Source: Ignavibacteria bacterium
Lineage (GTDB): Bacteria > Bacteroidota > Ignavibacteria > Ch128b
Assembly: GCA_013177855.1 (NCBI GenBank)
Contig: JABLYA010000001.1
Coordinates: 1,591,573 to 1,655,572, forward strand
DNA: 64,000 nt
Direction of reading: 5' to 3'
Made by a program: the position numbers and the translations under genes. How positions within the stretch are numbered: position 1 is the first letter of the stretch; each line of letters begins with the position of its first letter. Below are positions 11,029 through 38,893 of the stretch, in pieces. A model generated the notes under the pieces. That model was not told where the DNA came from. It saw nothing but the letters and a program-made list of their open reading frames with translations, and searched no databases.

Positions 11029-11583
11029 ATGAAAAGTCAGTTAGATGATAATGTTTTAATTGATAGATTTTTAGCCGGCGATACGAAGGCTTTTAATCTG
11101 CTTGTCGAAAAATATAAAAGGAAAATCTATCTGACTGTTTATAGATTGCTCGGAAATCATGAAGACGCCAGTGACATTACTCAAGAAGTCATAATTAAAA
11201 TGTATAATGAATTAAAAAATTTTAGACGTGAGTCATCAATTTATACTTGGATTTATAGGATAGCGACAAATTTATCGTTGAATGAGTTAAAAAGGCGAAA
11301 AATTAGAAGTTTTTTTGATTTTGATGAACTTGAAGAATGGTTATTTAAGGATGAAAAACAATCACCCGAATTAAGCTTTAGAGAAAATGAATTGTCTAAT
11401 AAAATACAGGAAGCGATAAATAAGCTTCCAGAAAAACAAAGAACAGTATTTACTTTAAGATATTATGATGGTCTTTCTTATGAGGAAATTTCTGAAATAC
11501 TTGGGACTTCAGTCGGTGCTTTGAAAGCAAATTACTTTCATGCAATCAATAAATTGCAAAAGGAGTTGAAAGATGTTCTGTGA
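11029..11583 (+). CDS. ECF-type RNA polymerase sigma factor
   Basis: A sigma-70 family extracytoplasmic-function sigma factor of 184 residues. Region 2 (about residues 20-90) has the DITQEV and WIYRIATNL signatures. Region 4 (about residues 125-180) has LPEKQRTVFTLRYYDGLSYEEISEILG, the helix-turn-helix that reads the -35 box. The next gene is a zinc-finger anti-sigma factor overlapping by 11 bases, the normal arrangement for a RpoE-like stress circuit. TATTTTTG at 11010-11017 is a possible promoter box, with no clear upstream partner. Autoregulation is likely but not shown. Confidence 0.92.
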   Translation: MKSQLDDNVLIDRFLAGDTKAFNLLVEKYKRKIYLTVYRLLGNHEDASDITQEVIIKMYNELKNFRRESSIYTWIYRIATNLSLNELKRRKIRSFFDFDELEEWLFKDEKQSPELSFRENELSNKIQEAINKLPEKQRTVFTLRYYDGLSYEEISEILGTSVGALKANYFHAINKLQKELKDVL

Positions 11584-12199
11584 TGATTACAAAAAATTAA
11601 TGATCGAATATTTTGATACGGGTCTAAAAGATCAAGATAAAATCCGTCTCGATGAACACCTCGAAATTTGCAGCTCTTGCAAAATGGAGTTTAATGAACT
11701 TGAAAAACTATTTAATTCATTGGAAAGAGAAAATCAAATCGTGTTAGTGGAAAGCGAAAAGTATATTCAATCAATTGATGTAGATGAGATTATTGCGCGA
11801 AAGAAAAAAAGGAAATGGTTTGAATTTCAATTCAGTCAATCAATAGCTTTTGCTCTAATTCTCTTAGTTTCCATTGTGATTTATTTTAACTTAACAAAGG
11901 TGAATAACCTGAACAATAAAAGTTTAAATGGTGAACTAACTATGAGCGAAACAACAACAAACGATTTTTTAGGAGATTATATTAATCAAGATTATCTATA
12001 TGAAAATGTTGATGAAACAATTCTATCTCAATCTGATTACTTCAAAGATGTATTAAATTTCATTGATGAATTAGAATCTTTAGCCTTTACTAATCAAGAT
12101 TTATTAATCGGAACTGAAACCGAGATAAATAAAATTGATGAAAATGATGTGGACGAAATAATAGCCCAATTAGAAAATAAAAAATTCTTAGGAGAATAA
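11573..12199 (+). CDS. Anti-sigma factor with putative zinc finger, single-pass membrane protein
   Basis: This 208-residue protein begins with the zf-HC2 motif HxxxCxxC (His29, Cys33, Cys36; HLEICSSC), which in ZAS-type anti-sigma factors folds into the domain that sequesters the sigma factor. A single transmembrane helix spans about residues 90-108. The remaining 100 residues are acidic, low-complexity and presumably periplasmic, so they may sense envelope stress or be cleaved. The start overlaps the sigma gene by 11 bases, indicating translational coupling. Its release mechanism cannot be read from the sequence. Confidence 0.85.
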   Translation: MFCDDYKKLMIEYFDTGLKDQDKIRLDEHLEICSSCKMEFNELEKLFNSLERENQIVLVESEKYIQSIDVDEIIARKKKRKWFEFQFSQSIAFALILLVSIVIYFNLTKVNNLNNKSLNGELTMSETTTNDFLGDYINQDYLYENVDETILSQSDYFKDVLNFIDELESLAFTNQDLLIGTETEINKIDENDVDEIIAQLENKKFLGE

Positions 12200-12202
12200 G
12201 AT

Positions 12203-12676
12203 ATGAGAATCATTTTAAGCTTTTTGGTTTTAATGTTTGTATTTAATCAGGTGAATGCCCAGCAATGGGGAATGCGTGATAACCAGAGAAAGAAATTGGA
12301 AGAATTCAAAAAAATTAAGTTGATAGAGGAGCTTGATTTAAATCAAGATGAATCTACTCGGTTTTTCGCTTTATATAATGAGCACCAGAAAAAGGTTCGA
12401 GATATTCAAAAGGAAAGAGATAAAGTTATCGATCAAATTGAAAGATTGATCAAAGATGAAAACAAATTTCAACCTAAAAAATTTGAAGAGCTTGAGCAAA
12501 GATTGAATGAACTTGAACAGGAATTATTTAGAAACCGAACGGAGTTTCATTCAAATATCAAAAATGTTCTATCCCCATATAAAGTTGCAAAGTATTATGT
12601 TTTTGAACGACAATTTATGCGTGAAGTAAATAAACTTTTGATGATGAGAAGGGGTAGACAACTGCCTGAAGAATAA
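12203..12676 (+). CDS. Spy/CpxP-like periplasmic protein (putative)
   Basis: This is a small exported helical protein of 157 residues. The signal peptide covers about residues 1-19 (cleavage after VNA). The mature part is almost entirely charged alpha helix with a long predicted coiled region, similar in size and composition to Spy/CpxP-type envelope chaperones and the metal-resistance zraP group; a true LTxxQ motif is not clear. It follows the anti-sigma gene by 3 bases and so is probably an effector or feedback component of that ECF circuit. The family assignment is by resemblance only. Confidence 0.6.
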   Translation: MRIILSFLVLMFVFNQVNAQQWGMRDNQRKKLEEFKKIKLIEELDLNQDESTRFFALYNEHQKKVRDIQKERDKVIDQIERLIKDENKFQPKKFEELEQRLNELEQELFRNRTEFHSNIKNVLSPYKVAKYYVFERQFMREVNKLLMMRRGRQLPEE

Positions 12677-13777: not shown

Positions 13778-15256
13778 ATGAATGAATTTCAATCACTTCT
13801 AATCTTAGCTGCAATCACTATCTCGTTGCTCATCTTGTTTGAATTTCTTGCGAGAAAAAATGTTATAACTAAAAACCTTTCCCGAAAATTATTGCATATT
13901 ACAACAGGCTTTATTGTTGTTTATCTTCCTTTTGTTGTACAAAATTTCTGGCTCGTTGTTTTTGTCGGGACAGCATTTAGTATCTCGAATTTTATTTTAA
14001 TTAAAAAGCATTTAATCAAACAAATAAACGATACAGGAACTGTAAATTGGGGGATTTTTTATTATCCACTTTCTTTTTTGATATGCACTTTGCTTTTCTG
14101 GAATGTAAATAAATTCATAATCAGTTTGAGCTTTTTGATTTTTTCAATTGGAGATGCATTTGCTGCACTTGTTGGAAATTATTCGTCAATTAAATATCTG
14201 ACACGCATTACCAAAGAGCCAAAGACTTTTAATGGTGTGATTGCGTTTGTACTAAGTTCTTTTTTCCTTCTATGGATTGTAAAAGTTTTTCTGTGGGAAA
14301 AATTGAATTTTATAGATTATAATTGGTTAGAGTTTTCTTTCCTTGCTTTAATATTTTCCTTGCTCGGGGGAATTACTGAAGCGGTTAGTACTAAAGGTAC
14401 AGATAATCTTAGCTTACCTATTATACTTTCGTCAGCAACAATGATGTTTTTTGTAAAAGGGATTGATTTAAGCTCATTTGTTCTCGCATTTGTTCTTGCA
14501 TTTTTGATTTCAATCTTTTCATATAAAATGAAATTTCTTGATCTGGGTGGTTCAGCTGTAACTTTTCTTTTGGCGGTTTTCATATTTGGAATTGGAGGAT
14601 GGAAATGGACAATTCCGATTCTTACATTCTTCATTTTCTCATCGCTTCTCTCAAAAATTGCTGAAAGAATAAGCAAAAAAGATGTGAGTTCAATTTTTGA
14701 AAAAGGGAGTCAAAGGGATTATAAACAAGTCCTTGCAAATGGCGGGGTACCTTTGCTTATTATTGTTTTAGGTAATTTGGTACCATTGAAAATTGATTGG
14801 TATTCGATCTACTTGCTTTCGATTGCAATTGCTACTGCTAATACCTGGTCGACTGAATTTGGAACTCTCTTCGCAAAGAATGTCTATTTGATTACAAATT
14901 TCAGAAAGGTTACACCAGGAATTTCTGGAGGGATTTCATTTATCGGTACTTTGGGCGGTGTTTTAGGCTCTATTTTGATCATCTTAAGCGCAGGATTTTT
15001 TATTCCATTAAATCTTAAAATTTTTCTTTCAATTGTTTTCTTCGCATTGCTTGGTAATTTGTTTGATAGTCTAATGGGTGCAACGATTCAGGTAATTTAC
15101 AAATGTTCGATTTGCGGAAAATTAACAGAGAAGAAGTTTCATTGTTCTAAAGAAACTGATTATCACAAAGGCATAAAGTTCATTGATAATGATATGGTTA
15201 ATTTAGGTTCGGTTTTTTTCATAAGTTTAGTTTATTTCCTATTTTTGATTGTATGA
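13778..15256 (+). CDS. Fusion: dolichol/phytol kinase-like domain + DUF92 (VTE6-like) domain
   Basis: A polytopic membrane protein of 492 residues. The N-terminal half (about residues 1-205) belongs to the CTP-dependent dolichol/phytol kinase and phosphatidate cytidylyltransferase superfamily, with SRKLLHITTGF near residues 30-40 and SIGDAFAALVGN near residue 130. The C-terminal half matches DUF92/TMEM19, the family of plant VTE6 phytyl-phosphate kinase. It has AIATANTWSTEFG, TPGISGG and the family's C-terminal CSICGK...HC...DNDMVN signature. Such a fusion could phosphorylate a prenyl alcohol twice. I start at ATG 13778; the longer in-frame start at 13706 lies inside the terminator. It overlaps the next gene by 4 bases. 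The substrate is inferred. Confidence 0.8.
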   Translation: MNEFQSLLILAAITISLLILFEFLARKNVITKNLSRKLLHITTGFIVVYLPFVVQNFWLVVFVGTAFSISNFILIKKHLIKQINDTGTVNWGIFYYPLSFLICTLLFWNVNKFIISLSFLIFSIGDAFAALVGNYSSIKYLTRITKEPKTFNGVIAFVLSSFFLLWIVKVFLWEKLNFIDYNWLEFSFLALIFSLLGGITEAVSTKGTDNLSLPIILSSATMMFFVKGIDLSSFVLAFVLAFLISIFSYKMKFLDLGGSAVTFLLAVFIFGIGGWKWTIPILTFFIFSSLLSKIAERISKKDVSSIFEKGSQRDYKQVLANGGVPLLIIVLGNLVPLKIDWYSIYLLSIAIATANTWSTEFGTLFAKNVYLITNFRKVTPGISGGISFIGTLGGVLGSILIILSAGFFIPLNLKIFLSIVFFALLGNLFDSLMGATIQVIYKCSICGKLTEKKFHCSKETDYHKGIKFIDNDMVNLGSVFFISLVYFLFLIV

Positions 15257-18225
15257 GAAGGCTAATTTTTATAATAATTATAGTATCTTTTCGTCTACTA
15301 TTTGCTCAAACATCGATTGATAAATTTGAAAGAGGGCTAAGACTTTACGAGGAGGGATTTTATGCTGAGGCTTATCAGATATTTAATGAAATTAAAGAAA
15401 GCAAAGAATTAAGCTATGAATCATTAGCTCAAATTTATTTTCTTCTTGGTGAGATAAAATACAGATTAAATGAATTTGTTGAAGCTACCTTCGATCTGGA
15501 AAATTATGTAATTAAATTTCCTTATGATAAAAATTATGATCTTGCTCTCTTAAAGTTAGGTCAAATTTATTTTACTCTTGGGGTTTTTACTAATGCTGAG
15601 AAATTCCTGATTAAGCTAATTGAAAATGTCCCTGACAGCAGATACATAGGTCTTGCTCACTACTGGTTGGGTGAAGTTTATTCTGCCCAGGATAGATTTG
15701 AAGATGCTGAAAAAAATTTTCTTGAAGCTTTAAGTTATAAAGAATCAAATACAAAACTCGATCACACCTATTTTTCTCTTGGTTATCTATATGAAAAATT
15801 AAAATTATATGATAAGGCTGAGTATTACTATGAAAGTCTGATAATGAGTTTTCCAAATTCTCAACTTACTCCGCTTGGACTTGTAAGAGTTGCACTTGCT
15901 CATTACATCAACGGAAATTATAATAAAGCAATTTCGCGATTAAACGATCCAAAGGTTCGCTCACTTTCACAACAAAATCTCGCTGAAGCTTATTACATTC
16001 TTGCCAATAGTTATTATAAGATTGGAAAGTTTTATGAAGCTCAAGTAGAATTTCAGAATGTTGTTAATAGATATCCAGACTCAAAAATGGTAAGACCCGC
16101 AAAGTATGGTCTTGCTTGGTCTTTCTATCAACAAAATAAATTCGAACAAGCTCATAGAGTCTTTAAAGATTTAAGCACAGGTGATGATTCATTAGCTGAG
16201 AGGTCACTTTACTGGCTTGGATTTATCAGCAGAAACCTTGAAAACAATCAAAGAGCCATTCAAGAATTTTCAGGTTACATCTCAAAATATCCTTCAAGTG
16301 AATTTACTTCGAAAGCTAAATTTCAAATTGGTTTGATAAACTACGAATTAAAGAAATATCAGGATGCAGAGCGGTTCTTGATTGAAGTTATCGAAGACAC
16401 TTTAGATGAAAAAACTCGTGCAAGTGCGGCACTTTTACTCGGTACAATTTCGATGGATAGAAAAAACTTCCGTGTGGCAAAAACCAATTTTGAACTTGCT
16501 GTAAGTTTAATTGATGAAAATGACGAAGATTTTTCTGATGCTTTACTTGGGCTCGCCATTTCTAATTTTTATTTGAATAATTTTGATGCAACTATTTTTA
16601 TTGCCAATAGAATTTTAAGTAGAAAGAATTTCAGAGATGAGGACAAAGTTAGATTTTATCTTGCTGAATCCTATTTCACACTTAATCAATACAATAATGC
16701 AATTAAAGAGTATGAACGGGTGATAAAATTAACGAACGATGAATTATTGAAAGAGTTATCAACCTATGGTTTAATCTATTGCAATTTCAACACAAAAAAT
16801 TATTCAAAAGTGATTCAGTTAGCTCAACAATTTCTTGATAATTTCACCTATTCGAAATATTACAATGAAGTCAAATTAAGGCTTGCAGATTCTTATTATG
16901 CTCAGAAAAATTTTGCAAAAGCAAGCCAGCTTTATCGTGACTATTTTTCCGATCCTGATGCACGGGGAAGTGATTATGTTTCTTATCAACTTTCACAGGC
17001 TCTCTTCAGAGCAGGAAATCTTGAGGGTGCAATTGATGAACTGAAAAGATTCTTGAATCAGTATCCAGCCTCACGATATGCTGATGAAGTTCAATATTTA
17101 ATTGGCTGGATTAGATTTAAGCAAGGGAAATATGAAACGAGTATCGAAGAATATAGGAAGCTCATTAATTCGTTCCCAAATTCTCCAATTGTACCTCTTG
17201 CATATTACTCAATTGGGGATGCTTATTTCAATCTCGGTTTGTATGATAAAGCAATAGCAAGCTATGACCAGGTTTTGAAAAACTATCCAAATTCTCAATT
17301 TGTTATCGATGCAATGAATGGAATTCAATACGCTTATGTTGCTCAGGGTAAAATTGATCTTGCAGCTCAGGTGATAACAGATTTTGTATTTTCAAATCCA
17401 GGAAATCCACATCTCGATAAGCTTCTAATTAAAAAAGGAGATTTGTATTTATCGCAAAGAAGATACCAGGAGGCAATTTCTGCATATAGAGAATTTATTT
17501 CATTTTTCCCCAATAGTTCATTAACTACAAGTGCATATTATTCAATTGCGAAAGCTTTTGTCCAGCTAAAATCTTATGATGATGCAATTTTCAATCTTTC
17601 AATCATTATAAGAAATTATTCAAACGATGAACTTGCCGATGATGCAATTCTTGAACTTGGCAACATTTACAGAACTTTGAATAGATTTGATGATGCTATT
17701 GAACAATTCCAGAATTTGATTCAGAATTATCCAAAGTCAAATTTGATTGCCGAAGCAAATTACTGGCTGGGTAAAGCGTATCTTGAAAAAGGCGATTTAA
17801 CAAATGCTAAGTCAAAATTTTTAGAAGTCTCTTCGAGATTTAAAGAATCGGGTTTTTATTCCAGAGCATTGTTTGATCTTGGTAAAATTGAGTATGAAGC
17901 CAGACCAGATACCGCTCTAAATTATTTCAAAAAAGTAGTGGAATTACGAAACGATGAATTTGGAGCTGAAAGTCAATATCTAATTGGTGAAATCTTATTA
18001 AAGAAAAAGAATTATCAAGATGCAATTGCAGAATATCTAAAATTAAGATATGCATTTGCAGGTTATACAGATTGGCTTGTAAAAGGTTTATTTAAAGTTG
18101 CACAGATTTATGAAACAATTAAAGACAAAAAGAAAGCAAGAGAATTTTATAATGAAGTTGCCAAACTTGATCCAAAAGGTGAATTAGGACAAGCAGCGAA
18201 AAATAAGTTGAGAAGATTGCGATGA
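15253..18225 (+). CDS. Large exported TPR-repeat protein (YbgF/CpoB/BamD-like)
   Basis: A 990-residue protein with a signal peptide (about residues 1-19) followed by more than twenty tetratricopeptide-type repeats. Many show the FPNS or YPNS turn between repeats (VDRYPDSK, SKYPSSEFT, NQYPASRYADE) typical of Tol-Pal-associated YbgF/CpoB and BamD-like proteins. It should form a long periplasmic solenoid. It overlaps the genes before and after by 4 bases in an operon with ExbB/ExbD/TonB homologues, so it may be a scaffold linking the outer membrane to that energised complex. It is far longer than CpoB or BamD, so it is not an orthologue of either. Confidence 0.85.
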   Translation: MRRLIFIIIIVSFRLLFAQTSIDKFERGLRLYEEGFYAEAYQIFNEIKESKELSYESLAQIYFLLGEIKYRLNEFVEATFDLENYVIKFPYDKNYDLALLKLGQIYFTLGVFTNAEKFLIKLIENVPDSRYIGLAHYWLGEVYSAQDRFEDAEKNFLEALSYKESNTKLDHTYFSLGYLYEKLKLYDKAEYYYESLIMSFPNSQLTPLGLVRVALAHYINGNYNKAISRLNDPKVRSLSQQNLAEAYYILANSYYKIGKFYEAQVEFQNVVNRYPDSKMVRPAKYGLAWSFYQQNKFEQAHRVFKDLSTGDDSLAERSLYWLGFISRNLENNQRAIQEFSGYISKYPSSEFTSKAKFQIGLINYELKKYQDAERFLIEVIEDTLDEKTRASAALLLGTISMDRKNFRVAKTNFELAVSLIDENDEDFSDALLGLAISNFYLNNFDATIFIANRILSRKNFRDEDKVRFYLAESYFTLNQYNNAIKEYERVIKLTNDELLKELSTYGLIYCNFNTKNYSKVIQLAQQFLDNFTYSKYYNEVKLRLADSYYAQKNFAKASQLYRDYFSDPDARGSDYVSYQLSQALFRAGNLEGAIDELKRFLNQYPASRYADEVQYLIGWIRFKQGKYETSIEEYRKLINSFPNSPIVPLAYYSIGDAYFNLGLYDKAIASYDQVLKNYPNSQFVIDAMNGIQYAYVAQGKIDLAAQVITDFVFSNPGNPHLDKLLIKKGDLYLSQRRYQEAISAYREFISFFPNSSLTTSAYYSIAKAFVQLKSYDDAIFNLSIIIRNYSNDELADDAILELGNIYRTLNRFDDAIEQFQNLIQNYPKSNLIAEANYWLGKAYLEKGDLTNAKSKFLEVSSRFKESGFYSRALFDLGKIEYEARPDTALNYFKKVVELRNDEFGAESQYLIGEILLKKKNYQDAIAEYLKLRYAFAGYTDWLVKGLFKVAQIYETIKDKKKAREFYNEVAKLDPKGELGQAAKNKLRRLR

Positions 18226-19823
18226 AAAAGATTTTATTTATTTTATTTATAAACACAGCTGTTCTTCTCGCTCAGCGTGATACAATTAAATCGAAAATTC
18301 CTGAGATCGAATTACCTGATTTTGTGATAACTGGACAAGCAACAGTTGAGCTTCCACGTCAAAATAAAGCCACTCCCGATTTAATTGTTCCGCTTTCAAA
18401 AGAGTTTATTTTGCCAAGAATTAAAATTCAAGAATTAAGACTTGAAGGTTTATCTGATCCATCAAGACAGCAGCCTTCAATTGTTGATACATCAATTAAA
18501 TACTCGGGAAGGATAAAAACTGCTGCTGGAATTTATTCACTCCCTGAAGCTGAAATTTTTTATTATGGTCGATTAAGGAATATCTTATTTGCAGCTGGTG
18601 GTAATTTTGAGAATAGCAGAGATTACGAAAAAAATTCAAAGTACCTGAAGACAAATTTCTTCCTGAATAATTCTCTCATCATTCAAAAAGAAAAAGAACC
18701 GCCTGCAAGATTAAACGTCAATGGCGCGTTTGATTATTTCAAATATTCTAATTTCAAATCTTTCTCATCCGACACATTTAATAACATAACAAACTTAAAT
18801 ATTAATGGTTCTCTCGAAAACTTATTCTATCGTGAATTCAATTTAAATTTTGGTGGTAATTTCGATTATCAAAAACTTAGCCGGTGGGATTTTTCATTTG
18901 CAGAAATCAGCGCATTTGGAACTTTAAAATCAACATTTGAACATTTTGAATTAACCGCATCGGCTCATCCTTATCTGTATAAAGTCTCGAAAAATTTAAC
19001 AGAAAATTCTCTAATTCTTTCAGCTTATGGAGAGTTATATTTTAGAAAATTATTCAATGTAATGAATATCGTTACAAGATTGGATTATCAAAGTGAAAAA
19101 GAAAATAACAGTCAATTTCTTGCACCGAGCACTCGAATTGGCTTTGGATTAAGTGATTATTGGACACTAACATTATTCTATGAAAACAAATTGTTAAATA
19201 AAACACCAATTAATCTGTGGAATGAAAATCCTTATCTTGACTCAGCCTCTTTTAATTACTCAATTGAAAGGATTAAAAATAAATTTGGATTTGGAACAAT
19301 CATTTACTTTGACAGATCAAGCAATTTGAAATTTGAACTTTCTAGATATAATGTTGCTGGTAAAAATGTGTTTATAGTAGATACAACTAACACTGGATAT
19401 TTCAAAATTCAAAAACTCGAAACAGAAACGATTGAATTAAATACTTTTCTTTTTGTTGATTTAAATCGATATGGAGATCTGCTGCTCAACTTAAAATATA
19501 TAAACTCAAGATTAAAGCTTACAACAAGGCAGGAACCACATAATCCAGCATTTCAATCTAAATTGTCCTATGGATATAGGTTTGCATTCCCACTTTATTT
19601 AAGATTAAGTTTTTTGTATAATTCAGTTAGTTACGGTGATATTAATCATCAGATAGAAATCGAGCCATATACAGATATTGAATTTAGTGCTGATTATCAA
19701 TTAGTAAAATTTTTAAATGCTGGAATTGAATTGAAAAACATTTTGAACAAAAAGAATTATAGGTGGTTTAATTATCAACAAAAACCAATTGATTTTCAAA
19801 TTTATTTGAAAGCAAGATTTTAA
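18222..19823 (+). CDS. Putative outer-membrane beta-barrel protein
   Basis: 533 residues with a signal peptide (about 1-17, ending LLAQ). The mature chain has many short amphipathic strands, is rich in aromatic residues and Asn, and ends in a terminal Phe (YLKARF), the mark of a BAM substrate. The last strands (NILNKKNYRW...) resemble the end of TonB-dependent receptors. No plug domain is seen. The mature N-terminus contains LPDFVITGQATV, which looks TonB-box-like. It could be the barrel partner of the TonB gene at the end of the operon. The assignment is by composition and ends, not by a recognised family. Confidence 0.6.
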   Translation: MKKILFILFINTAVLLAQRDTIKSKIPEIELPDFVITGQATVELPRQNKATPDLIVPLSKEFILPRIKIQELRLEGLSDPSRQQPSIVDTSIKYSGRIKTAAGIYSLPEAEIFYYGRLRNILFAAGGNFENSRDYEKNSKYLKTNFFLNNSLIIQKEKEPPARLNVNGAFDYFKYSNFKSFSSDTFNNITNLNINGSLENLFYREFNLNFGGNFDYQKLSRWDFSFAEISAFGTLKSTFEHFELTASAHPYLYKVSKNLTENSLILSAYGELYFRKLFNVMNIVTRLDYQSEKENNSQFLAPSTRIGFGLSDYWTLTLFYENKLLNKTPINLWNENPYLDSASFNYSIERIKNKFGFGTIIYFDRSSNLKFELSRYNVAGKNVFIVDTTNTGYFKIQKLETETIELNTFLFVDLNRYGDLLLNLKYINSRLKLTTRQEPHNPAFQSKLSYGYRFAFPLYLRLSFLYNSVSYGDINHQIEIEPYTDIEFSADYQLVKFLNAGIELKNILNKKNYRWFNYQQKPIDFQIYLKARF

Positions 19824-20092
19824 TGAACAAAAGTGACTTAATTGCACAAATAGCGAAAGAAACAAACCTCACTCAAAAGAGAGTAGGCGAAATTTTAGAT
19901 GCAATCCTTGAATCTATTATTGAAGTTGTAAAAGAAAGTGGTTCTATAACTTTTACGAATTTTGGAAAATTTGAAAAAAGATTAAGAAAAGAAAGAAAAG
20001 GCGTAAATCCAAAAACAGGAGATTTAATTTTAATTCCACCTAAAGAAGTTTTTATCTTTAAACCATCTAAAAACATTTTTAAGACTGAGTAA
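19823..20092 (+). CDS. HU/IHF family DNA-binding protein
   Basis: An 89-residue HU-type histone-like protein. The N-terminal helices (MNKSDLIAQIAKETNLTQKRV) are followed by TNFGKF and the DNA-binding arm RKERKGVNPKTGD, which keeps the NPxTG tip and the intercalating proline. Unlike a lone hup gene, it is placed in an envelope operon: its start and stop codons both share bases with the neighbouring genes (TAATG junctions). Its immediate partner is an HU-like membrane protein, so the two may form a heterodimer. This last point is inference. Confidence 0.9.
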   Translation: MNKSDLIAQIAKETNLTQKRVGEILDAILESIIEVVKESGSITFTNFGKFEKRLRKERKGVNPKTGDLILIPPKEVFIFKPSKNIFKTE

Positions 20093-21492
20093 TGGATCGC
20101 AAAGAATTTTTAGAAAAAGTTTCTTCTAAGATTGGTGCTGATGTAAAGGAAGTTGAACAAGTTTTCCAGAAATTTATTGATTCAGTCACAGCAGCACTCA
20201 GAGATGGTGAAAAAGTTAGCCTTGGAAATTTTGGTACTTTTTCTCCGAAGATCACGAAAGCTACAAAAAAATTCAGTGCCCTTTTAAATCGTGAGATTGA
20301 AATTCCAGAAAAGTTCACCATCTCATTTTCACCAGCTTCAAAAGTAGCTGAGGAAATTAATTTAAAGTATAAGGATGAAAAACCAACCGTAATTAAAGAA
20401 GCATCCGAACGGGAAATTGAAAAGAAGGTAGAGATTATGGCACAAGAAAAGGAATCTTCAGAAACTGATAAACAAGCAGAAGAAATTTCAAAATTGGAAG
20501 AGAAAACTTTAGAAGAAAAGCTTGAGCCTGAAGAAGAAAAAGATATTAGCTTATCAGCTGAGTTAATGGAAGTATTAAAAGAGGTCGAGGAAAAACTTCA
20601 GGAGGAAGAACAAGCGGAGCAACTATCAACTATTCCTGAGGTACACGAAACAAAAGAAGAAAAAGAGGAGGTTTCACAAATGCCCGAAATGAACCTCAAT
20701 CAAGATAAACCAAAATTTACATTTGGGGAAGATTTAACATCTCAACCAATTGGCTCGGGAAGTTACCAATCACCATCTTCAACGAGTGGAGCTGGACCAG
20801 CACCATCAAGTGCAGGACGAGAAAGTTCAGGTGCATTATGGATAACATTAATTATATTATTGATTGGTATCATTGGAGTTGGTATTTATTGGGCTTTAAG
20901 TTCGGATGTAACAGAAAGCAAAAAAGAACCTGTAGTTGAGCTAAAAAAAGAAACAACCCCACCTGTTGTAATTGAGAAAAAACCACAAACTGCAGGCAAA
21001 AAACAAATTATCATTGCACCAGAAGAATATTCATCTATTCCACCTGATACATCAATCAAGCAAAAATCTAACCTAATTGTTGAAGAACCTATCACAGAGA
21101 AAAAAGAAACAGTAACAGAAACTTCGAAAACTCCTGCTAAGACAGAAATTGTTAAACCAGAAACAAAAACAACTGTAACTCAGAAAGTAAAACCAATTCA
21201 AAGAAAAACAGTTGTTACCAAATCTATTGCGAGGAAGGCACCTGTTTCTTCGCAGGGTGATTACTTTATCCAGGTGAATTCTTATAGTGAGAAAAGATTT
21301 GCCGATGCATTTGCAAAGGATTTAAGGAACAAGGGATATCGTGCGTTTGTAGAAGTGAGCGATGTTCCAGGATTTGGTAGAATGTACAGAGTAAAGGTTG
21401 GTTTTTATTTGGATGAAGATGCAGCTGCGAAAGATTATCATAATTTAAGATTATTACTCAAAAAAGAAGATATATACGTAGATAGGAGATAA
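20092..21492 (+). CDS. HU-like DNA-binding domain + transmembrane helix + SPOR domain protein
   Basis: A 466-residue fusion. Residues 1-95 are HU-like (EFLEKVSSKIGADVKEVEQVF, LGNFGTF), but the arm has lost the RxGxNPxTG tip, so its DNA contact may be altered. Residues about 95-215 are a Glu/Lys-rich, probably coiled linker. One transmembrane helix covers about 249-270, followed by a Lys/Pro/Thr-rich region. A SPOR domain occupies about 390-466 (GDYFIQVNSYSE, RVKVGFYLDEDAA), the fold that binds glycan strands stripped of stem peptides at division sites. The predicted topology puts HU in the cytoplasm and SPOR in the periplasm. HU-SPOR architectures have been noted in Bacteroidota; the role is unproven. 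Confidence 0.88.
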   Translation: MDRKEFLEKVSSKIGADVKEVEQVFQKFIDSVTAALRDGEKVSLGNFGTFSPKITKATKKFSALLNREIEIPEKFTISFSPASKVAEEINLKYKDEKPTVIKEASEREIEKKVEIMAQEKESSETDKQAEEISKLEEKTLEEKLEPEEEKDISLSAELMEVLKEVEEKLQEEEQAEQLSTIPEVHETKEEKEEVSQMPEMNLNQDKPKFTFGEDLTSQPIGSGSYQSPSSTSGAGPAPSSAGRESSGALWITLIILLIGIIGVGIYWALSSDVTESKKEPVVELKKETTPPVVIEKKPQTAGKKQIIIAPEEYSSIPPDTSIKQKSNLIVEEPITEKKETVTETSKTPAKTEIVKPETKTTVTQKVKPIQRKTVVTKSIARKAPVSSQGDYFIQVNSYSEKRFADAFAKDLRNKGYRAFVEVSDVPGFGRMYRVKVGFYLDEDAAAKDYHNLRLLLKKEDIYVDRR

Positions 21493-21500
21493 TTTGTAAT

Positions 21501-22130
21501 ATGGATTTACTTACAGGATTTTTAAAGGGTGGGCTACTTATGTGGCCCATTCTTTTATGTTCAATAATTACAATTGGAATAGTAATCGAAAGATATTTTG
21601 TTTTGAGGCAGGCTTCTGTCAATGTTCCTCGTTTTATGATTCAAATTCGAGAATTAATGAAAAAAGGAGACATTGTCGAAGCCATTAATTATTGTTCAGA
21701 ATATAATTCACCAATTGCAAATATTATTCGCAAAGGACTTTCCAAATATCATTTCGGAATGGAAAGAATCAAAGAATCGATTGAAAGTGCAGGTAAACAA
21801 GAAATTTATAAACTCGAAAAAGGATTGTCTGTTCTTGCAACAATATCTGGTGTTGCACCTTTGCTTGGATTTCTTGGTACAGTGACTGGAATGATTTCAG
21901 CTTTTATGAGAATTGAATCTCTTGGTGGAAATGCTTCGCCTTCTGATCTTGCTGGTGGAATTTGGGAAGCATTGCTCACAACTGCATTTGGTCTTTCTGT
22001 AGGAATTATTGCTTATCTATTCTATAATTATTTCGTTACAAGAATTAATAAACTGATTTCGGAAATGGAGATTACCTCTACTGATTTTATTGACGTTCTA
22101 TACGAAAAAGAACATGGTAAGATGAAATGA
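21501..22130 (+). CDS. MotA/TolQ/ExbB proton-channel family protein
   Basis: The polytopic subunit of a proton-driven motor that powers outer-membrane processes, 209 residues. Three transmembrane helices are visible (about residues 10-30, 110-135 and 155-180), with the family core SGVAPLLGFLGTVTGMISAF and GIWEALLTTAFGLSVGI. It starts 8 bases after the HU-SPOR gene and overlaps the ExbD gene by 4 bases. Sequence alone does not decide between ExbB and TolQ; the linked TonB-like gene favours ExbB, and the linked SPOR and TPR genes fit Tol. I leave the symbol blank. Confidence 0.93.
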   Translation: MDLLTGFLKGGLLMWPILLCSIITIGIVIERYFVLRQASVNVPRFMIQIRELMKKGDIVEAINYCSEYNSPIANIIRKGLSKYHFGMERIKESIESAGKQEIYKLEKGLSVLATISGVAPLLGFLGTVTGMISAFMRIESLGGNASPSDLAGGIWEALLTTAFGLSVGIIAYLFYNYFVTRINKLISEMEITSTDFIDVLYEKEHGKMK

Positions 22131-22531
22131 AGTTTGAATCGGAAACTAAATTGTTAACAGCTTTTAATTATTCGTCACTTACTGATATTGTGATGCTTTT
22201 ATTGATTTTCTTTCTCCTTACATCTCAATTTGTTATAACGACTGGTGTGCAGGTAAAATTACCGAAATCTGAAACTTCTGAACCTGTTAATGAAAATCAA
22301 TTTATAGTTACAATTACAAAAACAAACGATATTTACTTTGGAAGTGAAAGAATTAGTTTAGGTGAACTTGCTGATAAAATAATTAAATCACCCGAACAGC
22401 AAAGAGAACGAAATCTTGTAATTAAAGCTGATAAAGAAGTCCCAATAGAAATTTTAATTAAAGTTATTGACATTGCTAAAAGTTCAGGTATAAATAAGTT
22501 TACGATTGCGACTGAAAAAGAAAGTTTATGA
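22127..22531 (+). CDS. ExbD/TolR family biopolymer transport protein
   Basis: A 134-residue partner of the proton channel. A short cytoplasmic N-terminus leads to one transmembrane helix with the essential proton-carrying Asp20 (SLTDIVMLLLIFFL). It is followed by VQVKLPKS and a periplasmic domain of about 90 residues that ends with the ExbD-type pattern of VIKADKEVP and a final IATE. Overlaps of 4 bases on both sides show tight translational coupling with the channel and TonB genes. Confidence 0.92.
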   Translation: MKFESETKLLTAFNYSSLTDIVMLLLIFFLLTSQFVITTGVQVKLPKSETSEPVNENQFIVTITKTNDIYFGSERISLGELADKIIKSPEQQRERNLVIKADKEVPIEILIKVIDIAKSSGINKFTIATEKESL

Positions 22532-23205
22532 AAAGATTTTTGTCTAATCGAAGAAATGCATTTATCGTCTCATTTCTTCTTCATACAGTTTTATTAATTT
22601 TCTTCTCGTTTGTAACTCTTGGGACAACAATCGAAGAACTTGAATATGTAACTGTTGATTTTGGTAGTCCCGGTTCTGGCAAAATGGGCGAATCACCATT
22701 AAGCGAAAAAGCCAATACAGCTCTTGAGGAACAAAAAGAAATTTCCGAAGAATCAAAACAAAAAGTAGAAACACCTAAAATCAGACAAGAATTTGATGAA
22801 GTCATTCAAAAGAACAATAAACCTGAAGAAGATAAAAGAAAAATAGAGAGAGCGAAACAATCTGAAAATATTTCCAAAAATGTTTCTAAGAATTCAGAAG
22901 GTGAACAGCCATTTGGTTCAAGCGGTTACAGCTTTGATTGGGGTGGCAGAGGAACAAGAAAAATTTTAAGATGGGAAAAACCTAAATTTCCCGAAGGTGT
23001 TCAGAAAGAAATTGATATTAAAATAAAATTTACAATCCTTCCCGATGGTTCGGTTGTGTCCCCTGTTCCATTAATTAAAGCAGATACTCAACTTGAAGAT
23101 GCCGCCATTCAGGCATTAAAAACATGGAAATTTGAACCATTAAGACCAAATCAAATTCAATTTGAACAGACGGTAATTATTACCATACCGTATAGATTAG
23201 AATGA
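22528..23205 (+). CDS. TonB-family energy transducer
   Basis: A 225-residue protein with one N-terminal transmembrane anchor (about residues 11-30), a Glu/Lys-rich periplasmic spacer instead of the Pro-Lys/Pro-Glu repeats of E. coli TonB, and a C-terminal TonB domain (about 150-225). The domain is marked by FTILPDGSVVSPVPL and AAIQALKTWKFEPL. It would transmit motor energy to an outer-membrane partner, possibly the barrel protein encoded at 18222-19823. It is the last gene of the operon, and convergent genes begin 2 bases later with no clear terminator. Confidence 0.9.
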   Translation: MKRFLSNRRNAFIVSFLLHTVLLIFFSFVTLGTTIEELEYVTVDFGSPGSGKMGESPLSEKANTALEEQKEISEESKQKVETPKIRQEFDEVIQKNNKPEEDKRKIERAKQSENISKNVSKNSEGEQPFGSSGYSFDWGGRGTRKILRWEKPKFPEGVQKEIDIKIKFTILPDGSVVSPVPLIKADTQLEDAAIQALKTWKFEPLRPNQIQFEQTVIITIPYRLE

Positions 23206-34432: not shown

Positions 34433-36523
34433 ATGAAAAAACTCTTTACAATTTTGTTCTTGATTTCATTTGTGACTGGATTATTTGCTCAAAGAGCAAA
34501 TATTAAAATAGAACCAGTCACTCCCGAAAGACTTCATAAACTTGGCTTCCCAACTCAATCTGTTTCAAGTGGTTTACCAGTAGTTGGAGCTGAGACCTAT
34601 GTTTATCTTTCGGCTCAGAACATTGGAAATACTGAGCCTATAACATCTGCAGTATGGGAGTTTACATCAAAACCAAGTGGTTCAACTGCAGCATTTACAT
34701 ATCCGTATTCAGATAATAGCTGGGCTTATTTCCTGGCAGATAAAACAGGTGCATACAATGTAAAACTCACCATTACAACTGCCTCAGGAACCGACGATAC
34801 AACAATTACAATTTATGCTGCAAGATATGTTGGCGTCGGTAATTTCGATGGTGTTCCGGCTCAATATCCAAATTGTATGTCCTGTCATGGTGCGATGCCT
34901 AAATTCACAGAAATCTTTAATCGCTGGAAAAATTCAGGACATGCTTTAAGATTTAAAATTGGCATTGACGGAAATCCCGCCTATTATTCAAGCAGCTGTT
35001 TTAAATGCCATACAGTCGGATACAATCATGATTTAGCAGCAAATAACAATGGTTTTGATGATGTTGCTGCTCAATTAGGCTGGGATTGGAATAACTGGAA
35101 ACCAGCAAAACCAGGTAACTGGGATTCATTAAAAACAAAGTATCCAGCCCTGGTCCAATTTGCAACAATTGGTTGTGAAAATTGTCATGGCGCTGGAAGT
35201 GAGCACACAATGGGTGGAAGCAAAGAAAAAGTTGCAATTTCATATAACTCTGGTGCTTGCGGTCAATGCCATGATGAACCGTGGAGACATAACAGATATG
35301 CTCAATGGGAATATTCTGGACACTCTGAAGCAATTTGGTCAAATTCATTTGCTCAGAGTTCTGGTTCAGATTATATGAGCAATAATCTTAATAACTGTAT
35401 CCGTTGCCATGATGGTCGAGGATTTGTAAACTTCACAAAAGGACAACCAACCGATACAAAAGGAATGATTGAGGCACAACAAGTAAAAATTGGTTGCCCA
35501 ACTTGTCATGATCCTCATGGTAATGATCAAGAATATAGTTTAAGAAAAATTCCTGCAGGTGCAGATACACTTGCAAACGGTCAGCAAATTACTCTCGGTG
35601 GTAAAGGTAAGCTTTGTATGAGTTGTCATATTGCAAGAAGAAATGCTGCAACTTATGTTCTTACCAATGTTACTTCTCAACACTGGGGTCCACATTATTC
35701 AACTCAGGGTGATGTTTTCTTGGGTACAAATGCAGCAGACTTTGGAACTGGATTTATTAGCTCATCTCATAAATATGTTGTTCAAGATGGATGTGTTGGA
35801 TGTCATATGGCAGCCACAACTGATACCGGTACGGTCACTCGCGATCGAGTTGGTGGACATAGCTGGAAATTACGTGATGAAGAAAATAATTATGAGCATG
35901 TTAAAGCATGCCAAACATGTCATGGACCACAAATCCAAAGCTTTGATGATTTCATCGCTGCTGCTGATTTTGATGGGGATGGAAATATCGAAAGTATCAG
36001 AAATGAAGTTTTAGGATTAATGAAAAATCTGAGAATTGCTTTACCACCAGTTGGAATTGATTCTATCAGCTGGCAGATGATTCGAGATGCAAATGATTTG
36101 AATATGAGAAAAGCTTATTTCAATTATAGATTGATTGATGGCGATGGCAGCCTTGGAATGCACAATACCAAATTCACAATTGATGTTTTGAGAAAATCTA
36201 TTGCAATTCTGACTGGTGTCGAAGTCGTTGATAATAACATTCCAACAACCTTTGACTTAAGTCAGAATTATCCGAACCCATTCAACCCATCGACTGAAAT
36301 TAAATTCGCAATACCAAAGACAGAAAAAGTTAGAATTTCAATTTATAACTCCATTGGAAAACTTGTGAAAGTTTTAGTTGATGATAATTTAACTCCAGGA
36401 ACTTACAAAGTTACCTGGAATGGTGATGACAACCGTGGTCAGAAAGTATCCAGTGGTGTATATCTCTACAGATTAGAAACACCATCATTCCAGTCAACAA
36501 AGAAAATGGTTCTGTTGAAGTAA
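34433..36523 (+). CDS. Nonaheme c-type cytochrome with T9SS type A sorting domain
   Basis: A 696-residue exported cytochrome. A signal peptide (about 1-19) is followed by a PKD/Ig-like domain (about residues 25-135, TYVYLSAQN...ITIYAARYV). Nine CXXCH heme sites then lie between Cys148 and about residue 497: CMSCH, CFKCH, CENCH, CGQCH, CIRCH, CPTCH, CMSCH, CVGCH and CQTCH. The C-terminal 85 residues are a T9SS type A sorting domain (SQNYPNPFNPST, ending KKMVLLK). It would thus be placed outside the outer membrane, consistent with extracellular electron transfer or a surface reductase role. No other redox gene is adjacent. The substrate is unknown. Confidence 0.93.
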   Translation: MKKLFTILFLISFVTGLFAQRANIKIEPVTPERLHKLGFPTQSVSSGLPVVGAETYVYLSAQNIGNTEPITSAVWEFTSKPSGSTAAFTYPYSDNSWAYFLADKTGAYNVKLTITTASGTDDTTITIYAARYVGVGNFDGVPAQYPNCMSCHGAMPKFTEIFNRWKNSGHALRFKIGIDGNPAYYSSSCFKCHTVGYNHDLAANNNGFDDVAAQLGWDWNNWKPAKPGNWDSLKTKYPALVQFATIGCENCHGAGSEHTMGGSKEKVAISYNSGACGQCHDEPWRHNRYAQWEYSGHSEAIWSNSFAQSSGSDYMSNNLNNCIRCHDGRGFVNFTKGQPTDTKGMIEAQQVKIGCPTCHDPHGNDQEYSLRKIPAGADTLANGQQITLGGKGKLCMSCHIARRNAATYVLTNVTSQHWGPHYSTQGDVFLGTNAADFGTGFISSSHKYVVQDGCVGCHMAATTDTGTVTRDRVGGHSWKLRDEENNYEHVKACQTCHGPQIQSFDDFIAAADFDGDGNIESIRNEVLGLMKNLRIALPPVGIDSISWQMIRDANDLNMRKAYFNYRLIDGDGSLGMHNTKFTIDVLRKSIAILTGVEVVDNNIPTTFDLSQNYPNPFNPSTEIKFAIPKTEKVRISIYNSIGKLVKVLVDDNLTPGTYKVTWNGDDNRGQKVSSGVYLYRLETPSFQSTKKMVLLK

Positions 36524-36813: not shown

Positions 36814-38166
36814 ATGAATAAACAGAAGATTTATATTGAGACTTATGGCTGTCAGATGAACCTGGCTGATACAGAAATAGTTCAGGGTGTTCTGAAAAGA
36901 AATGGTTATGAACTTACCAGTGATGCTGAACAGGCGGATGTTGTTCTAATCAATACCTGTGCAATAAGGGAACACGCTGAAGAAAGAATTTATGGAAGAC
37001 TTGGTGCTTTTCGTGCAATTAAAAAACACAAACCAAACCTTGTCGTCGGTATTTTAGGATGTATGGCTGAGAGGCTACGTTCAAAATTAATTGAAGAAGA
37101 AAAAATAGTTGACCTTATAGTTGGCCCTGATGAATATCGTCGTGTACCAGAATTAATTGATAACGCTTTGATTGGTGAAAAAGGAATTGCTGTCAGATTG
37201 AGCAAAACAGAAACTTATGATGATATTGAACCATACCGCGAAGATGGAATTTCTGCCTGGATTGCTGTGATGCGTGGCTGCGATAAGTTTTGTACTTTTT
37301 GTGTTGTCCCATTCACAAGAGGCAGAGAAAGAAGCCGACCACTTCAAAGTATTGTAAATGAAGTTAAAGCTTTAAGTGAAAGAGGATTTAAAGAAGTTAA
37401 TTTACTCGGACAAAATGTTAACTCTTACCGTGACGGCAATTATGATTTTGCTGATTTACTTGCTGCAGTTGCTAAAGTTGACCCTACGATGAGAGTTAGA
37501 TTTACTACTTCACATCCTCAAGATTTTTCTGATAAACTAATTTATACAATTGCTGAACACGAAAACATTTGTAATTACATTCATTTGCCAATTCAATCGG
37601 GTTCAAATAGAATTCTAAAGTTAATGAATAGAACCTACACAGTTGAGCATTACCTCGAAAGAATTGAAAAAGCTCGAAAGGTTATTCCAGGTGTTAGTTT
37701 CTCTACAGATATCATCGCTGGATTTCCAACTGAAACAGAAGAAGATCATAAAATGACATTAGATATATTACGTGAAGTTCGATACGATGGTGCGTTTATG
37801 TTCAAATACTCAGCAAGAGAAAGAACCAAAGCTTATGAAATGGGTGATGATGTACCTGATGAAGTAAAAACTCGTCGTTTAAATGAAATAATTGAACTTC
37901 AGCAAAAAATATCTTATGAGATTAATCAGACATTAATTGGAAAAACTGTTGAAGTGCTTGTTGAAGACTTCAGCAAGAAATCAAAAGATTTTTATATGGG
38001 ACGAACCGATACAAATAAAATCGTTATCCTTCCAAAAGATGGATTAAATATCGGAGATTACTGCTTAGCTACTATTACCAGAGCCAATTCAGCAACCCTA
38101 TTTGCCAGTAAAGCCGAGAAGATTGAAAAAAAGTTTGCTGAGTTTTCTTCTTATGAAAAGAATTAA
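36814..38166 (+). CDS. miaB: tRNA-2-methylthio-N6-dimethylallyladenosine synthase
   Basis: A radical SAM methylthiotransferase that adds a methylthio group to i6A37 in tRNAs, 450 residues. The auxiliary 4Fe-4S ligands are Cys13 (YGCQMNLAD), Cys49 (NTCAIREHA) and Cys about 83 (GCMAERL). The radical SAM cluster is CDKFCTFC. The start ETYGCQMN and VVPFTRGRERSRP distinguish MiaB from RimO, which occurs separately at 48585. The C-terminal TRAM domain covers about residues 378-440. The next gene overlaps by 14 bases. Confidence 0.96.
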   Translation: MNKQKIYIETYGCQMNLADTEIVQGVLKRNGYELTSDAEQADVVLINTCAIREHAEERIYGRLGAFRAIKKHKPNLVVGILGCMAERLRSKLIEEEKIVDLIVGPDEYRRVPELIDNALIGEKGIAVRLSKTETYDDIEPYREDGISAWIAVMRGCDKFCTFCVVPFTRGRERSRPLQSIVNEVKALSERGFKEVNLLGQNVNSYRDGNYDFADLLAAVAKVDPTMRVRFTTSHPQDFSDKLIYTIAEHENICNYIHLPIQSGSNRILKLMNRTYTVEHYLERIEKARKVIPGVSFSTDIIAGFPTETEEDHKMTLDILREVRYDGAFMFKYSARERTKAYEMGDDVPDEVKTRRLNEIIELQQKISYEINQTLIGKTVEVLVEDFSKKSKDFYMGRTDTNKIVILPKDGLNIGDYCLATITRANSATLFASKAEKIEKKFAEFSSYEKN

Positions 38167-38893
38167 TCAATTGATTATAAAATTCCTGATTTATCTTTTT
38201 ATATCTGTAAATTTTTTATTTGCTCAATCACTCGATTTGAAGAAAGTCATTCAGGATATTGAAAGAGGAGAAACAGAAAAAGCAAATATAATTTTAGTAA
38301 GTCTCGAAAAAGATAATCCCAATTCACTTGAAGTAAAATATCTCAGAGCTTTACTGAACGAAAATGGTGATGAAGCCGCCAAGCTTTATAAAGAAATTGT
38401 TTTTTCTTCAGATGTTTCCGATTTGAAAGACGATGCTTTATTTAAACTTTATCAGTATTATTATGCACGTGCAGAATTTAGTGAGTCCGATAAGTATGCA
38501 AGAATGTTGAAGGAATCATTCCCAGAGTCTGAATATTTAAATTATTTGCAGAGAAAGAATTTATCTCAATCAAGGCTTCAAGTACAGCAAAATTTTGAAC
38601 AAAAAATTTTAAACGATACATCCCGTAACATAAGTCAATCAGAACAAACTCAACCGATCTCTAATTCTAATTTCTCAATTCAGGTTGGAGCTTTTTCTAC
38701 TTACTCTAATGCAGTAAGATTTGCATCTCAATTTCAAAAATACCCCACTAAAATTTCTGAGAAAGAAACAAACGGGAGAAAATTTTTCATCGTTATGGTC
38801 GGAAGCTACGCCACCGAGACGGAAGCACGAAATGCACTCCAAACATTGAAAAATCAATACAAAGTGGATGGAATTATTGTTTCATTACAATAA
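38153..38893 (+). CDS. Exported TPR-like and SPOR domain protein
   Basis: A 246-residue protein with an N-terminal signal or anchor segment (LIIKFLIYLFISVNFLFA), a TPR-like helical part (about residues 25-130) and a C-terminal SPOR domain (about 175-246, NFSIQVGAFSTYSNAVRF, KFFIVMVGSYATETEAR). SPOR domains bind denuded peptidoglycan at the division site. I start at ATG 38153 because the 17 residues upstream lie in miaB and break the signal peptide. It is coupled to miaB by a 14-base overlap. Partner proteins are unknown. Confidence 0.85.
   Translation: MKRINQLIIKFLIYLFISVNFLFAQSLDLKKVIQDIERGETEKANIILVSLEKDNPNSLEVKYLRALLNENGDEAAKLYKEIVFSSDVSDLKDDALFKLYQYYYARAEFSESDKYARMLKESFPESEYLNYLQRKNLSQSRLQVQQNFEQKILNDTSRNISQSEQTQPISNSNFSIQVGAFSTYSNAVRFASQFQKYPTKISEKETNGRKFFIVMVGSYATETEARNALQTLKNQYKVDGIIVSLQ

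Follow-up and report, generated by a model that had tools for sequence, protein, structure and literature searches.

The window analysed here, a stretch of 64,000 nucleotides from an Ignavibacteria bacterium (contig JABLYA010000001.1), carries a forward-strand operon in the order TPR990, barrel, HU, HU-SPOR, ExbB, ExbD and TonB. The coupled gene run starts with a DUF92 membrane protein (13778..15256), identified by PF01940 (E=1e-58) and synteny, and continues with TPR990, an exported 990-residue protein matched to TPR families in profile searches (15253..18225), and OMB, a 533-residue outer-membrane beta-barrel of the TonB-receptor type that is apparently plugless, as judged by profile comparison with the PDB (18222..19823). 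These are followed by HU89, a separate 89-residue HU protein with an intact NPKTG arm (19823..20092; PF00216, E=3e-28), and by a 466-residue HU-TM-SPOR protein, here HU-SPOR, defined by its open reading frame, Pfam matches and an AlphaFold model (20092..21492). The run closes with an ExbB/TolQ-type motor subunit (21501..22130; PF01618, E=1e-34), an ExbD/TolR-type subunit with membrane Asp20 (22127..22531; PF02472, E=2e-29) and a TonB/TolA-type transducer with membrane His19 (22528..23205; PF03544, E=2e-7). From 13778 to 23205, the genes overlap by 1-4 bases or lie 8 apart, all seven junctions touching or nearly so, and the stop of HU89 shares one base with the start of HU-SPOR in TAATG. An earlier note on this DNA had proposed a single operon with a 990-residue TPR protein and an outer-membrane barrel upstream of the HU genes; the one-base overlap and tight spacing of coupled genes bear out the first proposal, and the profile matches the second. 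The nearest named relative of the locus is the Ignavibacteria MAG JAOAHM010000045.1, at 65% identity.

HU-SPOR consists of an HU domain, an acidic linker, one hydrophobic segment, a linker rich in proline and lysine, and a SPOR domain. The HU domain (residues 1-90, 20092..20361) matches PF00216 at E=2e-17 and, taken as an isolated domain, covers 90/90 positions of the profile; a profile of the whole protein compared with the PDB matched IHF/HU chains as well as SPOR chains from DedD and a sporulation amidase, so that both Pfam and PDB profiles place a full-length HU/IHF fold at the N-terminus. Hydropathy shows one hydrophobic segment at residues 243-273, preceded by a stretch with 23% D/E, and together with the model it places a single membrane helix at residues about 248-275 (20833..20916). 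The SPOR domain (residues 388-453, 21253..21450) matches PF05036 at E=2e-10. Although the AlphaFold model, built from a two-sequence input, has low overall confidence (pLDDT 46.9), its SPOR part is confident (pLDDT 74-88) and agrees with the crystal structures 6i05/6i09 of the RlpA SPOR domain at a TMt of 0.79, and HU-like helices are modelled at residues 3-14, 18-38 and 83-94. The HU fold, the single membrane helix after an acidic linker and the SPOR domain that had been proposed from the letters alone are thus upheld by profile searches, hydropathy and the model, respectively. SPOR domains bind denuded septal glycan through a conserved patch of Gln and Arg (PMC6895207). Across 30 relatives, Q394 is invariant and R433 nearly invariant; mapped by motif, they are the probable counterparts of RlpA Q270 and R309 (PMC6895207), and sequence and model together give a SPOR fold with conserved glycan-contact residues. 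Like FtsN, DedD and DamX, HU-SPOR combines a cytoplasmic-side part, one membrane helix, a linker and a C-terminal SPOR domain with the glycan-contact Gln and Arg; unlike them, its cytoplasmic-side part is an HU domain with a long acidic linker. An HU domain, a membrane helix and a SPOR domain in one chain are also the hallmark of CCDC81-type HU-SPOR proteins. HU-SPOR fusions in Bacteroidetes have reportedly been described before, by Burroughs et al. in 2017; no paper on HU-SPOR was found among the open-licence papers searched.

To assess conservation, loci were located with a TPR990 profile in 197 good genomes of the class, many of them fragmented assemblies, of which 158 were positive; orthologues also occur in other Bacteroidota. 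A further 79 loci of up to 20 kb each were fetched, and 97 class loci were scanned with home-made profiles. The order TPR990, OMB, SPOR, ExbB, ExbD, TonB was retained, with OMB detected in 95/97 class loci, TonB in 83/97, SPOR in 80/97 and ExbB in 52/97, and the arrangement TPR990-barrel-SPOR-(ExbB-ExbD)-TonB, which spans some 20 class families and also occurs in other Bacteroidota, is shared by much of this phylum. The profile scan of class loci detected no SPOR gene in the operon in families f2, f4, f18 and f23. Outside the class, where L160, L145, L147 and L156 exemplify the same order, TPR990-OMB is kept in 16 of 20 sampled Bacteroidota loci (in L141 as an overlapped frame recognised by eye), and an HU and/or SPOR gene comes next in about 14 of the 20, most of them with ExbB. 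In four of the other Bacteroidota loci (L142, L143, L146, L150), an aroA-like gene comes after TPR990 and the operon is missing. The earlier note had named two outcomes that would count against it, the lack of an HU fold and an ExbBD/TonB association not conserved in relatives. Both were checked and neither was observed; the association holds far beyond near relatives.

ExbB, ExbD and TonB_C of the window each exceed their Pfam cut-offs. PF01618 and PF02472 thereby provide the TolQ/TolR-type motor expected of a Tol-Pal system, and PF03544 with His19 provides a TolA/TonB-type transducer with a membrane His; against more specific models the ExbB/TolQ subunit scores 107.7 bits for TolQ and 69.8 for ExbB, both below cut-off. 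The membrane Asp20 of ExbD is invariant (51/51). The transducer His, whose conserved form is modelled as a motor contact in PMC12204202, is present in the TonB membrane helix at 51/52 loci with a local ExbB, the sole exception being L059, which lacks ExbD, and at 11/31 loci without one, the 11 including f18; this correlation applies to local motors only and is drawn from relatives that are not independent, so that its Fisher p-value is not taken as proof. At the exceptional locus (L059:10966-11547), ExbD has apparently been lost: what begins like ExbD (VKFESSLRP) continues as a TonB-like protein that has no membrane His. Coupling to a motor is not universal, since many lineages keep SPOR, TonB and OMB with no local ExbBD and several of these have also lost the TonB His. 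Equating the lack of local ExbBD with motor loss was considered and rejected: in f18 (L169) the motor lies upstream, and in f16 (L163:3414-6712, L164:1121-4415) ExbB, ExbD and TonB sit away from TPR990, OMB and HU-SPOR, together beside a DUF92-like gene, which is the usual operon mate (recognised in L163 from its length, its position and a similarity in sequence judged by eye). Since the motor of f18 can sit upstream and the relocated TonB of f16 has no membrane His, the His rule is a tendency. Two further motor clusters were seen in the genome of the window: L138:7510-13299 encodes a second TPR protein (1052 aa, related to TPR990) with ExbB, ExbD and a long transducer, a similar cluster occurring in L165, and L137:8285-9974 encodes ExbB followed by two ExbD genes with no adjacent TonB.

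The partner of this motor in the outer membrane is indicated by the barrel. Searched against the PDB, a profile of 35 OMBs matched TonB-dependent receptors, 5fp1 most strongly (E=2e-14), over barrel strands only; no Pfam plug match was obtained and all profile matches fall inside the barrel, leaving no detectable N-terminal plug. The AlphaFold model of OMB (two-sequence input; pLDDT 26.8) is unusable. Behind the signal peptide, all but a few OMBs have a motif of the form LPxFVITG, which in the window reads ELPDFVITG (OMB residues 30-38, 18309..18335), as in TonB-dependent transport, where a barrel of the receptor superfamily bears a TonB box. Among the 7434 ORFs of these loci, the strict motif is confined to OMBs, 68/95 of which have it; a looser form is present in 85/95, where shuffled sequences would give 6.8, and TonB-box-like variants are visible by eye in OMBs of other Bacteroidota. 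On sequence grounds, OMB is therefore taken to be a barrel of the receptor type that has no plug and could be gripped by TonB, and the strong conservation of the box on such a barrel gives TonB a dedicated outer-membrane partner. A search of the open-licence literature for plugless barrels returned nothing on bacteria. Since a Ton system is made up of exactly these parts, ExbB-ExbD-TonB and a barrel with a TonB box, the operon could be a nutrient or metal importer with a shrunken receptor, in which SPOR merely positions the complex and there is no role in division. This is improbable: no plug or ligand-gating region was matched, the barrel is tied to SPOR and TPR genes instead of a substrate locus, and the genome has the separate ExbB-ExbD-ExbD set of L137. 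The motor families and the receptor-superfamily barrel with its TonB box are shared with import systems; the match over strands only, with no plug, and the fixed SPOR and TPR neighbours set the operon apart from them.

TPR990, in which no lipobox was seen, could instead suggest that the operon is an accessory to type IX secretion or to gliding, with TPR990 as a PorW/SprE-like part. The partial match of TPR990 to the PorW/SprE model NF052312 speaks for this, and SprA was found in 149/149 class genomes searched; yet the match attains 154 bits against a cut-off of 250 and covers TPRs only, and genomes of f6 and f13 that gave no TPR990 match have SprA as well. Being universal in the class, SprA makes co-occurrence with type IX secretion uninformative, and the accessory-module reading, which gains no support from it, is very unlikely. 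Separately, a small CxxCH cytochrome-c-like protein (TCFTCHRGQ) is encoded between TPR990 and OMB in L118:5966-6400 and L042:12131-12514, from families f8 and f16.

The two HU genes bear on the cytoplasmic end of the operon. In the window, HU89 keeps the NPKTG tip with its intercalating Pro; in the anchored HU of HU-SPOR, alignment shows a full-length beta-arm region, KITKATKKFSALLNREIEIP (20248..20307), whose tip reads FSALLN and has no such Pro, which agrees with the loss of the NPxTG tip pointed out earlier. Bacteroidia-like loci (L160, L153, L154) encode in the same slot a protein with HU-CCDC81_bac_1, bac_2, a membrane helix and SPOR, and L141, L144, L148 and L151 have a small HU-like ORF followed by an HU-SPOR-like gene. 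In profile comparison, HU89 matches the first CCDC81-type unit at E=2e-8 and the anchored HU the second at E=2.4e-12; cross pairings are weaker and the pairing is reciprocally best. The window's two HU genes therefore look like the unfused, and least degenerate, form of a CCDC81-type tandem, and the reciprocal matches favour heterodimerisation of HU-SPOR with the adjacent HU, which had been a side remark in the earlier note. With CCDC81-type HU-SPOR proteins (PF18174/PF18175), the window shares the operon slot, two HU units and the position of the HUs N-terminal to the membrane helix and SPOR; it differs in having two separate genes for its HUs, both of which are full-length and IHF/HU-like, and one of which retains the NPKTG arm intact. 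There is accordingly one HU per chain, and HU-SPOR matches PF18175 only at E=0.007, short of the Pfam cut-off. No work on CCDC81 in bacteria was found among the open-licence papers searched.

HU was detected on the SPOR protein in class families f1, f10, f12, f16, f22 and f26, and eleven other class families have a SPOR protein without detectable HU; f10, f22 and f26 have no separate HU gene. The scatter of HU states on the TPR990 tree, whose backbone is weakly supported, and the presence of HU in outgroups suggest that the domain is old, with several losses, and dispensable, several lineages being without it. Arm lengths, read by eye from alignments, vary likewise: in f1 and f16, HU89 has the complete arm, and so does the anchored HU (tip FSALLN in f1, DPKTG in f16). 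On the anchored HU the arm is degenerate in f22 and lost in f12 and non-class relatives (about 9-10 residues vs 29), and most lineages with the domain show either its loss or its alteration. DNA tethering by HU is plausible for f1 and f16. Two further HU genes are present in the genome of the window, as in most of 16 genomes tested, so that HU89 is a third free-standing HU. The HU pair might belong to an envelope machine without binding DNA any longer, serving instead for dimerisation or protein docking and so bringing in a partner from the cytoplasm, from division or from the motor. The arm losses and altered f1 tip, the missing HU gene of f10, f22 and f26 and the many operon-keeping lineages without detected HU are in line with such docking; the full NPKTG arm of HU89 in f1 and f16 and the DPKTG of the f16 anchored HU count against it, and with two other HU genes in the genome a dedicated third copy would be needless unless it had a specific role. 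Docking is a serious possibility, credited with somewhat less than even confidence. Several variant architectures were also recorded. In L066:7528-9557, the single HU-SPOR gene is replaced by two ORFs that overlap, one for HU (402 aa) and one for SPOR (274 aa); in family f2 (L099:9873-10915, L100, L101, L102), the HU-TM protein keeps HU-like domains and the membrane helix, and SPOR was not detected; L102 apparently has two HU domains fused in one chain.

Comparison with Tol-Pal (TolQ-TolR-TolA-TolB-Pal-CpoB) frames the preferred reading. Both systems have a proton-driven QR-type motor, a transducer with a membrane His, a periplasmic TPR protein and an outer-membrane partner, and the pairing of a motor with SPOR has a precedent in the division protein FtsN, which carries a SPOR domain and is bound by TolQ in E. 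coli (PMC3831626). The window operon differs in encoding a SPOR protein with HU domains attached and a TonB-box barrel in place of Pal. TolB_N gave marginal matches in 3/149 class genomes, PF04052 was not found in the genome of the window and no TolB lies in the operon; no Pal (OmpA-like lipoprotein) was found by Pfam in the operon. What is new here is the barrel as a TonB-receptor type with a TonB box and no detectable plug, together with the near-absence of TolB in the class; no account of the operon as such was found among the open-licence papers searched. According to PMC12204202, Bacteroidetes are reported without tol-pal loci, which makes the operon a good candidate for the missing equivalent. 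The same text proposes PorE as a Pal-like tether between outer membrane and peptidoglycan in Bacteroidetes and expects other systems. PorE, a CpoB-TolB-Pal-like lipoprotein, is likewise a proposed filler of the Tol-Pal gap but has an unrelated architecture, and no motor genes are described with it in the PMC12204202 passage on it.

On balance, the operon probably encodes, with modest confidence, a Tol-Pal-like, proton-driven trans-envelope machine acting at the division septum and not a nutrient importer. SPOR would direct the complex to septal glycan free of stem peptides, as in FtsN and DedD; ExbBD would energise TonB, which would pull the barrel by its TonB box; the barrel would take over the job of Pal as outer-membrane anchor, and the TPR protein would act as a periplasmic scaffold. 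In the cytoplasm, the arm-bearing free HU may pair with the anchored HU and touch DNA, the pair either holding the nucleoid close to the septum or keeping the machine in check until the nucleoid is out of the way. This HU/DNA step is the least certain of the mechanism and would be dispensable in lineages that lost HU. Because the barrel has a TonB box and resembles a plugless TonB-receptor barrel, a role spanning inner membrane, wall and outer membrane is supported, and the evidence for this envelope role is stronger than that for DNA tethering. Of the nucleoid-septum-outer-membrane system proposed in the earlier note, the envelope part is therefore well supported, with its TonB-box barrel and conserved gene order; the nucleoid end was overweighted, since HU goes undetected in many operon-keeping lineages and the arm is mostly lost. 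A bolder version is held only tentatively, as doubtful rather than probable: the operon may be the missing Bacteroidota equivalent of Tol-Pal, in which a Ton motor, positioned by SPOR, pulls a plugless TonB-box barrel at the septum, originally with a membrane-anchored HU heterodimer as nucleoid sensor. If so, outer-membrane constriction would be coupled to chromosome clearance, and the CCDC81-type HU family would descend from the anchored HU pair. How Bacteroidota constrict and anchor the outer membrane at division without Tol-Pal, a question raised in PMC12204202, is made testable by the operon, which brings together a motor, a reader of septal glycan, a handle on the outer membrane and an HU module in the cytoplasm. 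It also offers a functional hypothesis for CCDC81-type HU-SPOR proteins and suggests a route from a DNA-binding HU pair to a membrane-anchored module.

Other features lie around the operon. Upstream, at 11029-12676 of the window, are an ECF sigma factor, an anti-sigma-like gene and a small exported protein, and several loci of f1, f10 and f22 likewise have the sigma gene ahead of the operon. Downstream, a T9SS-like C-terminal sorting domain is encoded at 36002-36523, and another SPOR protein, with a signal peptide, directly follows a radical-SAM-type gene at 38102-38893.
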